From contig NC_013501.1 of assembly GCF_000024845.1 (NCBI RefSeq), positions 1 through 64,000 of the forward strand: a stretch of 64,000 nt of DNA, written 5' to 3'. The translations under genes and the position numbers were made by a program. The DNA comes from Rhodothermus marinus DSM 4252 (GTDB lineage: Bacteria > Bacteroidota > Rhodothermia > Rhodothermales > Rhodothermaceae). The notes under the pieces were generated by a model that had not been told where the DNA came from, did no database searches, and was given only the letters and a program-made list of their open reading frames with translations. The stretch's first letter is position 1. Each line of letters opens with the position of its first letter. This document shows positions 39,817 to 49,024 of this stretch, piece after piece.

Positions 39817-40469
39817 GTCAGGTGTTGATCGAACCGTTTCGCAAGGTCTGGGCGGCATTCGAGCGTCGGCTGTTTCCGGTCCCTTCGAGCGATCGGTTGT
39901 TCAATCTGTACCGCGATCGGCATCCCGAGCTGGATCGGCCCGAAGCACCGGCCATCCGGCGGCGCAACCTGTGGCGCTATCTGGCCGCCTACGAGACGCC
40001 GCCGACCGTTTTTCTGCTGGCCGAGGCGCCGGGACCCTGGGGCTGTCGGTTCTCCGGCGTGCCGCTCACGAGCGAGGCGCAGCTGCTGGATCCCGATTTT
40101 CCGCTTGCGGGCGAGGCGTCCGGACGGGCCGAGCGCCCGCACCGCGAGTACAGCGCCCGCATCTACTGGCGCGTCATGCGGCCGTACTTCCCGCGCTTTT
40201 TCACCTGGAGTACCGTGCCGCTGCATCCCCACCGGCCCGGGGTGCCGCTGTCGATTCGCACGCCCACGCAGCGCGAGGTGCGCGACTGGCTGCCGCTGGT
40301 GGCCGATCTGATCGAAGCGCTGAAGCCCGCGCAGGTAATCGCCATCGGTCGAAAAGCCGAGTTTGCGCTGCAGTCGCTGGGCATTCCCTGCACGTACGTC
40401 CGCCATCCGTCGCAGGGCGGCGCCCGCCTGTTCGAAGCCGGCGTGCGGGCCCTGCTGGGCGATCCGTGA
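39813..40469 (+). CDS. Uracil-DNA glycosylase-superfamily protein
   Basis: The 218-residue protein has the glycosylase-fold signatures [18 protein letters not shown] (68-85, motif I like GEAPG...GxPF), [18 protein letters not shown] (135-152), [16 protein letters not shown] and the late HPSQGG (198-203). It resembles a group of small UDG-like proteins seen in Bacteroidota and some Proteobacteria. Activity on uracil is not proven for that group to my knowledge. The start ATG at 39813 overlaps the channel stop. It is unlike the family-4-like enzyme at 12.1 kb. Confidence 0.8.
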
Positions 40470-43504: not shown

Positions 43505-45157
43505 CTATGCAAGCACTTGCTGCAGCCAGTGCTCCAGGTGTTCGGTGGCGCCGGGGAGAAGGGGGAGGGCGCCGACGCCGTCTTCGGCAAGGGCGCGGGC
43601 CAGACGGCTTTTGGCGAAGCAGCCGGCTTCGCCGTCGCGGTACGGGTAGAGGGCCAGCGCCTGGGCTACCGTGCCCTTGCCCTGGCGGGTGAAGTAACTC
43701 GAGAGCGCGTCGCGGTAGCGATGCAGGTCGTTCAGCGCGTCCGTCGGTGGGCCGGGCACCCCGTAGCGACGTACGTAAGCCGGCGAGGCGTCGAGCCGAT
43801 ACTTTGCGTCGAGCACGTAGTGGACGGGCGGGACGCCGGGCCGAAAGCGGGAGAGCAGCAGGTCGGGTTGCTGGGGGACAAGCAAAGCGCGGGCGCTCCA
43901 GCGCGGGTTGTACACAAGACGAAGGCGTCCGCCGTCCGAAAGAGGAAACGACAGCGGACGGCCGCGCACCGGGCGAAGCTGCAGCCCGTCGTCCGACAGC
44001 GTGAACAGCCGGTGCGGCGGAAGCGACCGGCCGGTCATCCGACTCAGCAACCGGACCAGCGTCAGGTAGCACCAGTACTCGTAGAGCGTGTGGATCTGTC
44101 CGACCTCGAACGAAAGCAGTCCGCCGAGCAGCGACAGGCGCCGGCGGAGCCACTGAAAGATCCGATAGGCCTGACGGTAGCCTTCGGCGCGAAGCAGGCG
44201 GGGCGTGGGGGACGGTGGAATCGGCGGGAGGGTCGTCGCAGGAAGCCGTTGTTGCAGGTTTTCCAGCCGGGTGGCCAGCTCCATGAGCGCCTGCCGGCGC
44301 GTCCGGGCGAAGGCGTCCGGGCGTGCCAACCGATCGGCCAACCGTTGCACCTGCCGGAGCGTGTGGTCGAGTTGCCAGGCCAGCCACCGGTGCTCCGGCG
44401 TGTCGGTGGTTAAGACGGCCCGGGGTGCCCGGTGCAGGCGGTGGGTGCGAACCCCCGCCAGATGCACCTCCGGTCCCTGACCGCCGCCGGTCTGCATCGC
44501 CCGTCGCAGCGCGGCATCCGGCCGCCGCACCGCCTCCAGGGGTTGCCAGCAGCGGGACATCCGCACCTCGGTCAACGGTCGGTGTGCGATGCGCCGGAAG
44601 GCGACCTCCAGCGCGTCGAGCACGGCCGCCAGGCGGGCGATCCAGCCCGGAAGTTCATCGGGCGGTCCGGCCAGCACCCGACCGGGTTGCCGGACACCGG
44701 ACCCGAAGCGCAGCGCCGGCTCGACGGTCCACGTCTCCAGATCGGCCAGCATGGCCTCATAGTCGGCCCGGTAGGCCAGGCGGGTGGGGAAGATCTCCAG
44801 CTCCAGCCGGAGGTGTGGGCGATCGTCGTGCCACACGATGAAGGCGGTGTGTCCCGCGTACGTGCCGAAGTGCAGCGATCCATGCCAGATTCGCCCCCCT
44901 TCGAGCGCGTGCAGGTCGCGAAGCAACGCCGGGTTGGCATGGCGCAGGGCGACAGGCCGACCGTCGCGGCTTTCCAGCAGCAGCCGGTAACGCGTCTGTT
45001 CGATCAGACCCGGGGCCTCGGCGGCGTAGTGCAGCGTCGGCTCCGCGCCTGTATCGAGTGCCCGGACTTCCACGGTCAGTGGAAAAGCGGAAGGTTGCCG
45101 GAGTGGGCCTTCCCAGGTGAGCCGCACGTGGTCGGTTTCGATCGTGAAGTAACGCAT
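43505..45157 (-). CDS. McrC-like restriction nuclease subunit (DUF2357 plus PD-(D/E)xK)
   Basis: The 550-residue protein has an N-terminal and central DUF2357-like region (about 1-360, helical with WLAWQLDHTLRQVQRLADRL) and a C-terminal nuclease domain. Its active-site pattern is PDLLLSRFRPGVPPVHYVLDAKYRLD (Asp432, Asp450, Lys452) followed by DLHRYRDALSSYF. This is the PD-(D/E)xK form seen in McrC partners. The gene directly follows the EVE-McrB gene with a 3-bp gap. Together they should form a type IV system that cuts modified DNA. It is convergent with the FG-GAP gene with no spacer. Confidence 0.86.
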   Translation of the reverse strand: MRYFTIETDHVRLTWEGPLRQPSAFPLTVEVRALDTGAEPTLHYAAEAPGLIEQTRYRLLLESRDGRPVALRHANPALLRDLHALEGGRIWHGSLHFGTYAGHTAFIVWHDDRPHLRLELEIFPTRLAYRADYEAMLADLETWTVEPALRFGSGVRQPGRVLAGPPDELPGWIARLAAVLDALEVAFRRIAHRPLTEVRMSRCWQPLEAVRRPDAALRRAMQTGGGQGPEVHLAGVRTHRLHRAPRAVLTTDTPEHRWLAWQLDHTLRQVQRLADRLARPDAFARTRRQALMELATRLENLQQRLPATTLPPIPPSPTPRLLRAEGYRQAYRIFQWLRRRLSLLGGLLSFEVGQIHTLYEYWCYLTLVRLLSRMTGRSLPPHRLFTLSDDGLQLRPVRGRPLSFPLSDGGRLRLVYNPRWSARALLVPQQPDLLLSRFRPGVPPVHYVLDAKYRLDASPAYVRRYGVPGPPTDALNDLHRYRDALSSYFTRQGKGTVAQALALYPYRDGEAGCFAKSRLARALAEDGVGALPLLPGATEHLEHWLQQVLA

Positions 45158-45160
45158 GGG

Positions 45161-46867
45161 TCACTCCCAGAACGAAGCGAAGCCTTCGCTTTCGAGCCGA
45201 AGCCACATGTGCGCCAGGCGGGCGGCCGTCATGGGAAAGGCGGCTTCCGGCCAGCGGTCCGGGTAGCCCGCCGCCGTCCAGGTGTCGAGCAGCGCGCGCA
45301 GTTCGTCGTCGCGTTCGGTCGGGGCGCCGGTGACGGCCCAGCCCAGCAGGGCCCGGAGGGCCCGGCGTAGCGGGGGCGAGCTGCCCTGCAGGCGGGGGAG
45401 CACCTTCATCCAGAACGCCAGGTCCAGCGGATCGACCGGTTCGCCGGTGCGCGTTCGGAACGCTTCGGGCATTTCGGCGGCGTGGAGCACGAACAGCGCC
45501 ACCTCGTCGCGCGTGCGGTAGGCCACCGGGAAGCCGGCGGGCTGCAGCCATCGGTTGAGCGTCTGGAGCGTTTCCAGCACGCGGTCCAGTTGCCGGCGCT
45601 CCGCGTCGGATGGCGTCGGTAGCTCGGCCAGGCGCAGCGCGCGGGGCCACCAGGCCGTCACCGGCCAGGGCTCGGGCTCGACCGCCGAGGAAGCGGGCGT
45701 GGCCGCCAGGTCGATCTCCGTCAGCTCCAGCGTGAAGGCGCGGTCGATCACCTTGCGACTGAAGCCGTGGGTGGTTTCGTCCACGTTCACCGTGCCCACC
45801 AGCGCGAAGTTGGCCGTCCAGGCCACGCGGGCCCAGCCCTGATCGGCCGGAGCGAGCGACAGTTGCAGCAGGGGTTCGGTGGTCCAGCCGCCTTCAGGAA
45901 GCGGGCGACGATCTTCAATGCGGCTGAGCGCTTCGGCCAGGTACTGCTCCGGTCGCGCCAGATTCATCTCGTCCAGCACACCCACAAAGAACCGATCGGG
46001 TTGCTGCTGTGCCTCGCGCATGAGGCGAAGCAGCGTGCCGGGACGGAAGCGGCCCTGCAGGTCCACGTAGCCCAGCAGTTCGGCGCTGTCGGCCCAGTCG
46101 GGGCGCACGGGGATGAGCTGGGCCGCGCTGCCGGTCGCCTCAGCCACCAGCAGCGGGAGCTTCGACTTGCCCGTGCCGGTAGGTCCCGCCAGGATGACCA
46201 GCGGTTTGGTGCGCACGGCCGCCACGTAGGCCGCCACGATCCAGGGCGCATAGACGAATCCCCGGCCTTCCAGGTAACCCAGGAGCGTTTCGAGCGCGGC
46301 GGCCCGGTCGAACGCTTCGGCGCGGTAGCGGACGCGCCGCTCGCGCACGACCGGTGCCGGTCGCTCGGCCCTGAGCCGGCGCAATTCTTCCAGGGCCGAC
46401 ATGGCCCGCTCCAGGTCGGCCGCCCGCGCCCGGATCAGAAACTCCAGCACTTTTTCGTCCACGCGCGGAAGCGGGTGCAGCACCTGTTGCACGACCGACC
46501 GAAAGTCGGGATAGTTGCGCACGACCTCCAGCTTGTCGGCGAACGCCTCGAACGGCACCCAGGCTTCTTCGGAGAGCACCACCAGCGGCCGCACGCGCAC
46601 GCGGTGCGGATAGGCCACGCCCGGCACCAGCGGCGTGTGGTCTTCGAAGGGCTCGCCCGTTACCTCGAACATTCCCACGAGCACCTTGGAGCCCGACAGG
46701 TAGGCGAAGATCCGATCGCCCGGACGCAGGCGATGGAGCGCGGCCCGGCCCACCCGGTGCACGGCAAAGGTGCCCGTCTGCAGAAAGGCCGGGTAGTGCT
46801 GGGGCGGGATGGCCCAGAGCCAGGCGCGTCCCTCGCGCGGGCGATATGTGGTGGGCGTTTCTGCCAT
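45161..46867 (-). CDS. McrB-like AAA+ NTPase with N-terminal EVE domain
   Basis: McrB-type motors assemble as rings, bind modified DNA through an N-terminal reader and drive McrC cleavage. The 568 residues begin with an EVE (PUA-like) reader (about 14-140: [41 protein letters not shown]). The AAA+ domain has Walker A GPTGTGKS (228-235), Walker B VGVLDEMN (295-302) and the McrB sensor stretch [20 protein letters not shown] (359-378). EVE domains read modified cytosines or similar bases. ATG at 46867 begins the EVE fold; the frame is open further upstream into uvrB. It is divergent from uvrB. Confidence 0.9.
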
Positions 46868-46883
46868 CGCGCGCAATATACGC

Positions 46884-46924
46884 CCGGAAGTTGTCGAAAA
46901 CGCAACTTCTGGCGGCACTTCCGG
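46884..46924. promoter_or_regulatory. Overlapping inverted repeats between the EVE-McrB gene and uvrB
   Basis: CCGGAAGT (46884-46891) is the exact inverse of ACTTCCGG (46917-46924), and GAAGTTG (46887-46893) the inverse of CAACTTC (46903-46909). The two pairings exclude each other. A further CCGGAAGTT lies just inside uvrB at about 46981. The 93-bp gap between divergent defence and repair genes thus holds several copies of one half-site, a plausible shared operator. Confidence 0.42.
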
Positions 46925-46960
46925 TTCTTGGAAAGGACCGGGGCAAAACGAAGGCACGAG

Positions 46961-49024
46961 ATGGAGGGAGCGGTTGAAAACCGGAAGTTCGAGCTGGTAG
47001 CGCCGTTCGAGCCGACCGGCGATCAGCCCCGCGCCATCGCGGAGCTGACCGAGGGTATCCTGCGCGGCGACAAATACCAGACCCTGCTGGGCGCGACCGG
47101 CACGGGGAAGACTTTTGTGCTGTCGCACGTCATTCAGAACGTGCAGCGGCCGACGCTGGTGATGAGTCCCAACAAGACGCTGGCCGCACAGCTCTACGGC
47201 GAGTTCAAGCAGTTTTTCCCCAACAACGCGGTCGAGTTTTTCATCTCCTACTACGACTACTACCAGCCCGAGGCCTACATCCCGGCCACCGATACCTACA
47301 TCGAAAAGGACCTGGCCATCAACGAGCGGATCGATCGGCTGCGCCTGCGGGCCACCAGTGCGCTCGTCTCGGGTCGGCGCGACGTGATCGTGGTGGCGTC
47401 GGTCTCCTGCATCTATGGCATCGGCTCACCGGACGAGTACCGCGAGCAGATCGTCCCGCTGCACGTCGGCCAGCAGATCGAGCGCAACGAACTGCTCCGG
47501 CGACTGGTCAACATCTACTACACGCGCAACGACGTGGAATTCAAGCCGGGCACGTTCCGCGTGCGGGGCGACGTGGTGGACATCTTCCCGGCCTACGCCG
47601 AGGAGAGCGCCTTTCGCATCGAGTTCTGGGGCGACGAGATCGACCGCATCGCCCGGCTGGATCCCACAACGGGTGAACTGGGCGCCGAGGAGACGGCCAT
47701 CACGATCTATCCGGCAAAGATTTTCGTCACGCCGCGCGACCGGCTGGAGCGGGCCATTGCTTCGATCGAGGAAGAGTTGCGCTGGCGGCTGGCCGTACTC
47801 CGGGCCGAGGGCAAACTGCTCGAAGCCCAGCGTCTGGAGCAGCGCACGCGCTTCGACATCGAAATGCTCCGCGAAGTCGGCTACTGCTCGGGCATCGAAA
47901 ACTACAGCCGCCATCTGTCGGGACGGGCGCCCGGCGAGCGGCCCTACTGCCTGTTCGATTACTTTCCGGACGACTACCTGCTCATCATCGACGAAAGCCA
48001 TGTCACGATCCCCCAGGTGCGGGCCATGTACAACGGCGACCGGGCCCGCAAGCTGACGCTGGTCGAGCACGGTTTCCGACTGCCCTCGGCGCTCGACAAC
48101 CGGCCGCTGACGTTCGAGGAGTTCGAGGCGCTGCACCATCAGGTGATCTTCGTGAGCGCCACGCCCGGCGATTATGAGCTGGAAAAGAGCGGCGGCGTGG
48201 TGGTCGAGCAGATCATCCGACCCACGGGCATTCCCGACCCCGAGGTCGAGGTGCGGCCCACCGAAGGCCAGATCGACGACCTGCTCGAAGAAATCCGTCA
48301 GGTGGTGGCGCGCGGCGAGCGGGCGCTGGTGACCACGCTCACCAAACGCATGGCCGAGGACCTGGCCGAGTATCTGGACCGCTTCGGCGTGCGCGTCCGC
48401 TACCTGCACTCCGAGATCGACGCGCTCGAACGCGTGGATCTGCTGCGTGGCCTGCGGCTGGGTGAGTTCGACGTGCTCGTGGGCGTCAACCTGCTGCGCG
48501 AAGGGCTCGACCTGCCCGAGGTGTCGCTGGTGGCCATCCTCGACGCCGACAAGGAGGGCTTCCTGCGCTCGGAACGCTCGCTGATCCAGACGGCGGGGCG
48601 GGCGGCCCGCAACGCGAACGGCAAGATTCTGCTCTACGCCGACCGGATCACCGAGGCCATGCAGCGCATGATCGACGAGACGAATCGCCGCCGCGCCATT
48701 CAGCTCGAATACAACCGCAAGCACGGCATCACGCCGCGCACCGTGTACAAGTCGCGCGAGGAGATTCTGAAAAGCACGATCGTGGCCGAAGAGAAGTACC
48801 GGCCGCTGGTCGATTCGCCCCGCTACGAGGAGCCCGAGGTGCCGCCGATCGTGGCCGATCCGGTCTTGAAGGAACTGACGCCCGAGCAGAAACGGGAGCT
48901 GATCGAACAGCTCCGGCGCGAAATGCTCGAAGCCGCCGAAAACCTGGAGTTCGAGCGGGCGGCCGAGCTGCGCGACACGATCCTGGCGCTCGAGCGCGAG
49001 CTGGACGCGCACGAGGCCGGGTAG
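46961..49024 (+). CDS. uvrB: Excinuclease ABC subunit B
   Basis: UvrB verifies DNA damage in nucleotide excision repair. From ATG 46961 the protein has 687 residues with the standard parts: Walker [10 protein letters not shown] (44-52), the damage-probing hairpin [23 protein letters not shown], helicase motifs [22 protein letters not shown] and [12 protein letters not shown], the second RecA-like domain with [32 protein letters not shown], and a C-terminal UVR domain that binds UvrC. The frame is open far upstream, but [23 protein letters not shown] is the typical start. Confidence 0.97.

Follow-up and report, generated by a model that had tools for sequence, protein, structure and literature searches.

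An EVE-McrB/McrC-like gene pair with an NxD-type motor, vertically inherited in the Rhodothermales

Two adjoining genes that lie back to back with uvrB in the chromosome of Rhodothermus marinus raise the question of what kind of machine they encode, and whether that machine is a mobile weapon or a component of the cell. The sequence examined here, referred to as the window, is the whole stretch of 64,000 nucleotides spanning positions 1 to 64,000 of contig NC_013501.1 of Rhodothermus marinus DSM 4252 (GCF_000024845.1). An earlier note on this DNA had interpreted the two genes as a compact type IV restriction machine, in which an EVE reader fused to an McrB-type AAA+ motor is followed after 3 bp by an McrC-like nuclease.

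The gene pair and its surroundings

The layout proposed in the earlier note agrees with both the open reading frame (ORF) coordinates and the Pfam matches. Both ORFs are intact, the gap between the stop of EVE-McrB and the McrC-like gene consists of bases 45158-45160 (3 bp), and uvrB indeed diverges from the pair across 93 bp. We regard uvrB as context rather than as part of the machine. The features of the locus are as follows.

45161..46867, minus strand: EVE-McrB (NxD-type) gene, 568 aa, ATG start (ORF; Pfam AAA_5 and EVE; PADLOC PDC-M26A, E 5.9e-39)
43505..45157, minus strand: McrC-like nuclease gene, 550 aa (ORF; Pfam DUF2357 and PDDEXK_7)
46868..46960, no strand: divergent intergenic region of 93 bp, common to mcrB and uvrB (comparison across the genus)
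46961..49024, plus strand: uvrB, conserved divergent neighbour (Pfam UvrB domains; synteny)

The two genes are not chance ORFs, as indicated by dN/dS within Rhodothermus (0.08-0.15 for McrB and 0.10-0.25 for McrC; 0.02-0.04 for UvrB) and by the retention of the pair in 23 genomes. Both McrB and McrC genes are under purifying selection.

In the genus-wide comparison of the intergenic region, CAATATACGC was conserved beside the mcrB start and could be a minus-strand -7 box, with a putative promoter role. A repeated CTTCYG element (AACTTCTG...CTTCCGGTTCTT) was also kept across the genus within 46868-46960, as was CAATATAC, which adjoins the mcrB start; the repeats and CAATATAC may together form a shared operator and promoter. 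An inverted repeat, GAAGTTG...CAACTTC, upstream of the window's mcrB was dropped from consideration, its left arm being missing in other species.

Pfam annotation of the surroundings revealed no defence genes among the neighbours of the window's pair, and neither neighbour annotation nor synteny showed a DNA methyltransferase adjoining it. Gene calls of the compared loci were used for synteny only. A gene of the uracil-DNA-glycosylase superfamily is located at window positions 39822-40469, 3 kb from the pair, and two or more other Rhodothermus genomes also have such a gene near the pair.

Motor, reader and nuclease

The motor and the reader occupy the EVE-McrB gene as listed below (residue numbers refer to the 568 aa protein).

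46424..46828, minus strand: EVE (PUA-like) reader domain, about residues 14-148 (Pfam EVE; alignment to PH1033; invariant residues)
45698..46300, minus strand: AAA+ motor core, about residues 190-390 (Pfam AAA_5, E 1e-8; model match to E. coli McrB)
46163..46186, minus strand: Walker A GPTGTGKS, residues 228-235 (orthologue alignment)
45962..45979, minus strand: Walker B VLDEMN, residues 297-302, with DEMN at 299-302 (orthologue alignment)
45776..45787, minus strand: signature motif NVDE, N361-E364, an NxD variant instead of NxxD (orthologue alignment; comparison with relatives)

The canonical McrB signature is NxxD (MNTADR in E. coli). In the window's motor, the corresponding motif N361-V-D363-E364 is one residue shorter and therefore does not conform to the signature of the canonical GTPase. 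Walker A (GxTGxGK), Walker B (DExN) and N361-x-D363-E364 did not vary in 23 orthologous motors, and the window's own Walker motifs are intact. Distant NxD relatives have N-x-D-E-[ST] and KV[LI]DR in common, together with a single arginine at the place where canonical McrB has an arginine run; the window's motor likewise has the single R376 where canonical McrB has adjacent arginines. A major branch of McrBC systems, designated NxD, shows the same deletion, with E or D as the usual next residue, and no motor of this branch had been characterised as of that report (Bell et al. 2024, eLife, PMC11090510). Our literature search, limited to open papers, found no later experimental work on NxD McrB motors. 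Judging from these motifs, we assign the motor to the NxD branch. A pair of neighbouring trans arginines acts on the nucleotide in TgMcrB (PMC7680126). Given the NxD motif and the single arginine, what is known of E. coli McrBC, namely that it uses GTP and how it is activated, should not be transferred untested. The predicted motor model, whose pLDDT is mostly good from residue 190 onward, had E. coli McrB (6ut6_D) as its closest match (Z 17.3, rmsd 2.8 Å over 179 residues).

The Pfam EVE (PF01878) match covers residues 31-95 and is weak when taken alone (E 5.1e-5, 23.7 bits versus a cut-off of 23); a match was found in 21 of 23 orthologues at E <= 0.1, and the orthologue alignment contains a set of invariant residues in this domain (W18, T33, A35, G40, R41, G50, D51, Y56, E68, F74, D76 and T78). 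By sequence, the nearest solved EVE protein is PH1033, for which we know of no ligand. When the two were aligned, F34 (Phe in 21 of 23 orthologues) stood opposite a Trp and the invariant W18 opposite a Cys, which suggests that the reader pocket may differ from that of PH1033. Sequence chaining through PH1033 within the PDB did not reach VcaM4I. In the predicted structure, for which the input included three EVE-bearing sequences, the EVE part had pLDDT below 50. The EVE domain of VcaM4I, a reader with solved modified-base complexes, flips and binds 5mC/5hmC (PMC7897488), and EVE-McrB is the commonest defence architecture containing EVE (PMC7641849). The reader domain of the Rhodothermus motor would probably sense modified bases.

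The nuclease subunit comprises three regions and a complete set of catalytic residues.

44780..45157, minus strand: N-terminal beta-sandwich (IG/filamin-like), residues 1-126 (predicted strands; structural matches to filamin IG)
44156..44881, minus strand: DUF2357 (McrC activator/finger) region, residues 93-334 (Pfam E 1.4e-27; model match to TgMcrC)
43637..44089, minus strand: PD-(D/E)xK nuclease domain (PDDEXK_7), residues 357-507 (Pfam E 2.7e-31)
43862..43864, minus strand: catalytic D432 of P431-D432 (no change in 24 orthologues or in four relatives from viral contigs)
43802..43810, minus strand: catalytic D450-A451-K452 (no change in 24 orthologues or in four relatives from viral contigs)

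The residues named in the earlier note as intact (Asp432, Asp450 and Lys452) are thus present at those positions, and the PD...DxK motif was preserved in all 24 nuclease orthologues. The nuclease model (mean pLDDT 69) best matched T. gammatolerans McrC in the McrBC complex, with Z 10.0 but an rmsd of 15.6 Å over 316 residues, followed by YdjA-YdiS (Z 8.0) and E. coli McrC (Z 7.8, 3.7 Å over 133 residues). Foldseek alone yielded no match for this subunit at E 0.001 or better, and the VIA comparison put McrC on top. Since the Z values of the nuclease model are modest, the weight of the assignment lies with the profile matches. Residues 8-126 also showed modest similarity to filamin IG-like domains (Z 5.6-7.3); an IG-like domain has been reported in the McrC proteins of CoCoNuTs (Bell et al. 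2024, PMC11090510).

Distribution, inheritance and separation of the genes

The pair is present in all seven Rhodothermus species (7/7). Analysis of 114 Rhodothermales genomes identified both genes in 23, the motor alone in none, the nuclease alone in one (a genome 77% complete) and neither gene in 90. Partial low-score motor matches in two further genomes (G165 and G298) look NxxD-type and were left out of the carrier count. Carriers include all listed members of families f1, f3, f5, f8, f9 and f53 and seven of the nine in f10; among the matches listed, there were none in f2, f4, f6, f7 and f51. The canonical McrC (PF10117) was scattered, occurring in 18 of the 114 genomes and in no Rhodothermus.

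The McrB and McrC trees agreed closely with each other (Mantel r 0.946, a value reached in 0 of 2000 permutations; 16 of 19 splits in common), and largely with UvrB (Mantel r 0.905 and 0.917, respectively; 11-12 of 19 splits in common). The pair is a vertically inherited chromosomal element across several families, not a mobile defence island. The core-chromosome location claimed earlier was therefore an understatement, the pair being fixed in the genus and passed on vertically well beyond it. Restriction systems usually move between genomes. For such systems it is unusual to be fixed throughout a genus, to be inherited vertically and to have their genes apart, and these traits could reflect a household role.

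Separation of the two genes was observed in several families. They are adjacent in f1 and in genomes G229 and G318, and in the rest of f10 and in f53 a single GNAT gene mostly lies between them. In six genomes of f3, f5, f8 and f9, mcrB and mcrC are apart, with the active-site residues kept. The distance is 425 kb in G031 and 11.5 kb in G177, each a single-contig genome, and in G307, G217, G095 and G308 the genes are on different contigs, where the available flanks do not contain the partner. Separate contigs in G321 were rejected as a sign of gene separation, as its genes run up to the contig ends. The flanks of separated mcrB or mcrC showed no replacement partner, and the neighbours are ordinary genes (ECF sigma factor, D-Ala-D-Ala ligase, MarC, glyoxalase and ABC transporter). 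A gene of the Siphovirus Gp157 family adjoins the separated mcrB of G217 (L101:8597-9118).

The old neighbourhood is still visible on both sides of the break: mcrB lies near uvrB (0.1-9 kb) in f1, f8, f10, f53, G031 and G308, and mcrC adjoins a GDPD gene in most of f10 and in G307, G308 and G315. Because separated mcrB genes are found near uvrB and separated mcrC genes near GDPD, the ancestral order was probably uvrB - mcrB - mcrC - GDPD, broken between mcrB and mcrC, each gene often having stayed with its old neighbour.

Some of these uvrB genes show a feature of their own. UvrB at L093:10756-14487 (G031) and at L104:1881-5618 (G319) carries a large in-frame insert near Walker A with intein-splicing and LAGLIDADG domains, and the UvrB of G308 (C311) looks alike in carrying an insert, judging from split matches only. 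No intein insert is present in the window's own uvrB.

Relatives, competing readings and known systems

Outside the Rhodothermales, the nearest motors are encoded on Mycobacteroides abscessus plasmids. They show 42% identity over residues 192-567, do not possess EVE, and lie beside an N6/N4 methyltransferase (N6_N4_Mtase) and a DUF2357 nuclease. A C5 methyltransferase lies beside the related motors of a Caballeronia plasmid and of two viral contigs, whose genes were named by eye from sequence. A pattern search for McrC relatives in viral contigs found none; some nonetheless lie beside McrB matches. In the motor tree, the Rhodothermales group with these Mycobacteroides and C5-methyltransferase systems of plasmids and viruses (support 1.0), a placement among other NxD motors. 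A Chloroflexota plasmid also encodes EVE with an NxD motor and is placed elsewhere in that tree, and thus EVE may have been fused to an NxD motor on more than one occasion. We consider that the Rhodothermales pair probably derives from a methyltransferase-associated NxD system that lost its methyltransferase, took up the EVE reader and was then inherited vertically in the chromosome. On the Mycobacteroides abscessus plasmid (L109), the Caballeronia plasmid (L112) and the viral contigs (L114 and L115), mobile cassettes combine an NxD McrB and a DUF2357 gene with an N4/N6 or C5 methyltransferase; these are apparently restriction-modification (R-M) systems with an McrBC-type engine.

The reading that we favour, and consider likely, is that the pair, as a member of the NxD branch of the McrBC superfamily, forms a restriction endonuclease of two components that is driven by NTP and depends on DNA modification (type IV-like). 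In foreign DNA, the N-terminal EVE domain would bind a modified base. The AAA+ part, of McrB type, would form a ring and, once stimulated by the nuclease subunit through its DUF2357 domain, hydrolyse NTP, possibly GTP; it may also translocate, and the PD-(D/E)xK domain would then cut the DNA, which would give protection against phages or plasmids. A protective methyltransferase would be unneeded because the host presumably does not carry the modification that is read, in the recognised context. The type IV interpretation of the earlier note therefore stands as the best reading, although its term McrB-type needs qualifying, the motor belonging to the NxD branch and not being a canonical NxxD GTPase.

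Several other readings were weighed against this one. A sequence-specific R-M system of the LlaJI/BsuMI kind, in which the motor reads an unmodified site and an unlinked cognate methyltransferase protects the host, would accord with the methyltransferases carried by the nearest relatives and with the position of the Rhodothermales among them in the motor tree; moreover, as mcrB and mcrC come apart, a methyltransferase could do likewise. However, the place of the specificity module is taken by the EVE reader, and the methyltransferase families detected among the 23 carriers were PF00145 in 8 (none of the 7 in Rhodothermus), PF01555 in 14, PF02384 in 16 and PF02086 in 7, such that none of the four occurs in all carriers and one Rhodothermus genome (G006, 99% complete) has none of them. 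With no consistent methyltransferase among these families, it is quite unlikely that the pair belongs to an R-M system whose protective enzyme is encoded elsewhere in the genome. We think still less of an RNA-targeting NxD system similar to CoCoNuTs, with the EVE domain reading modified RNA. An NxD motor and an IG-like N-terminal nuclease domain are both known from CoCoNuTs and RNA can be read by EVE/YTH domains, but the pair has no long coiled coils (judging from length and Pfam, only a short stretch separates EVE and motor), neighbour annotation showed no HEPN gene nearby, and the intact PD-(D/E)xK residues suggest a DNA nuclease, all of which makes this reading highly improbable.

Cooption for a household function, whereby the pair would act on RNA or on host DNA that is modified or damaged, in repair, chromosome maintenance or stress and hence be kept vertically beside uvrB, has more in its favour and is nevertheless unlikely. 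It would fit the genus-wide fixation, the co-retention even at 425 kb, the UvrB-congruent trees and the lack of defence genes nearby, and PcdA in S. aureus cell division is a precedent for a coopted EVE-McrB (PMC10602043). However, in PcdA the Walker A is degraded and McrC is missing, whereas the Rhodothermales motor still has its nuclease partner and no NTPase or nuclease residue has been lost. In addition, the nuclease evolves about four times as fast as UvrB, as in conflict systems; no carrier is listed in f2, f4, f6, f7 and f51, so the pair is not essential there; and the uvrB adjacency may reflect shared descent only. A broader proposal, that an NxD-motor/EVE McrBC machine became fixed and vertical in several families, retained as a working pair even where hundreds of kilobases separate its genes, and watches for modified or damaged bases in the host's DNA alongside or instead of phage restriction, is also unlikely, if slightly less so.

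The pair also has a wider significance. NxD is a major McrBC branch whose motors were unstudied as of 2024, and a small pair (568 + 550 aa) with few accessory parts from a thermophile genus is a practical candidate for studying how the shortened signature motif relates to nucleotide choice and activation. Vertical inheritance and separated but co-retained genes also provide a natural case of when a restriction system turns from mobile weapon into cell component.

Among known systems, the methyltransferase-associated NxD McrBC systems (Bell et al. 2024, PMC11090510) resemble the pair in the NxD(E) motor, the DUF2357-PD-(D/E)xK partner and the IG-like N-terminal domain. In contrast to them, the Rhodothermus pair has no adjoining methyltransferase or two-component genes, and the Rhodothermales pair has an EVE reader, vertical inheritance and genes that are sometimes apart. 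EVE-McrB type IV systems (Bell et al. 2020, PMC7641849) share the fusion of EVE to an McrB-like motor and the McrC partner; a possible difference is the NxD motor. LlaJI and BsuMI also have McrB-like and McrC-like restriction subunits, and YdjA-YdiS is a structural match, but these R-M systems possess their own methyltransferases and cut unmethylated sites. With regard to PADLOC PDC-M26, which is a candidate defence system only, the motor matches PDC-M26A (5.9e-39), and 4 of 24 nuclease orthologues, the window's own nuclease not being one of them, match one PDC-M26B model (best 4.1e-5). The McrBC systems of E. coli K-12 and T. gammatolerans, which gave the best structural matches, are alike in the two-subunit design, the Walker motifs and the activator with a PD-(D/E)xK nuclease, and differ in the NxxD signature and the paired trans arginines; the reader is DUF3578 in the former, YTH in the latter and EVE here. 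The pair is a known kind of McrBC-type machine; its mode of inheritance is unusual, and its motor is of an uncharacterised version.
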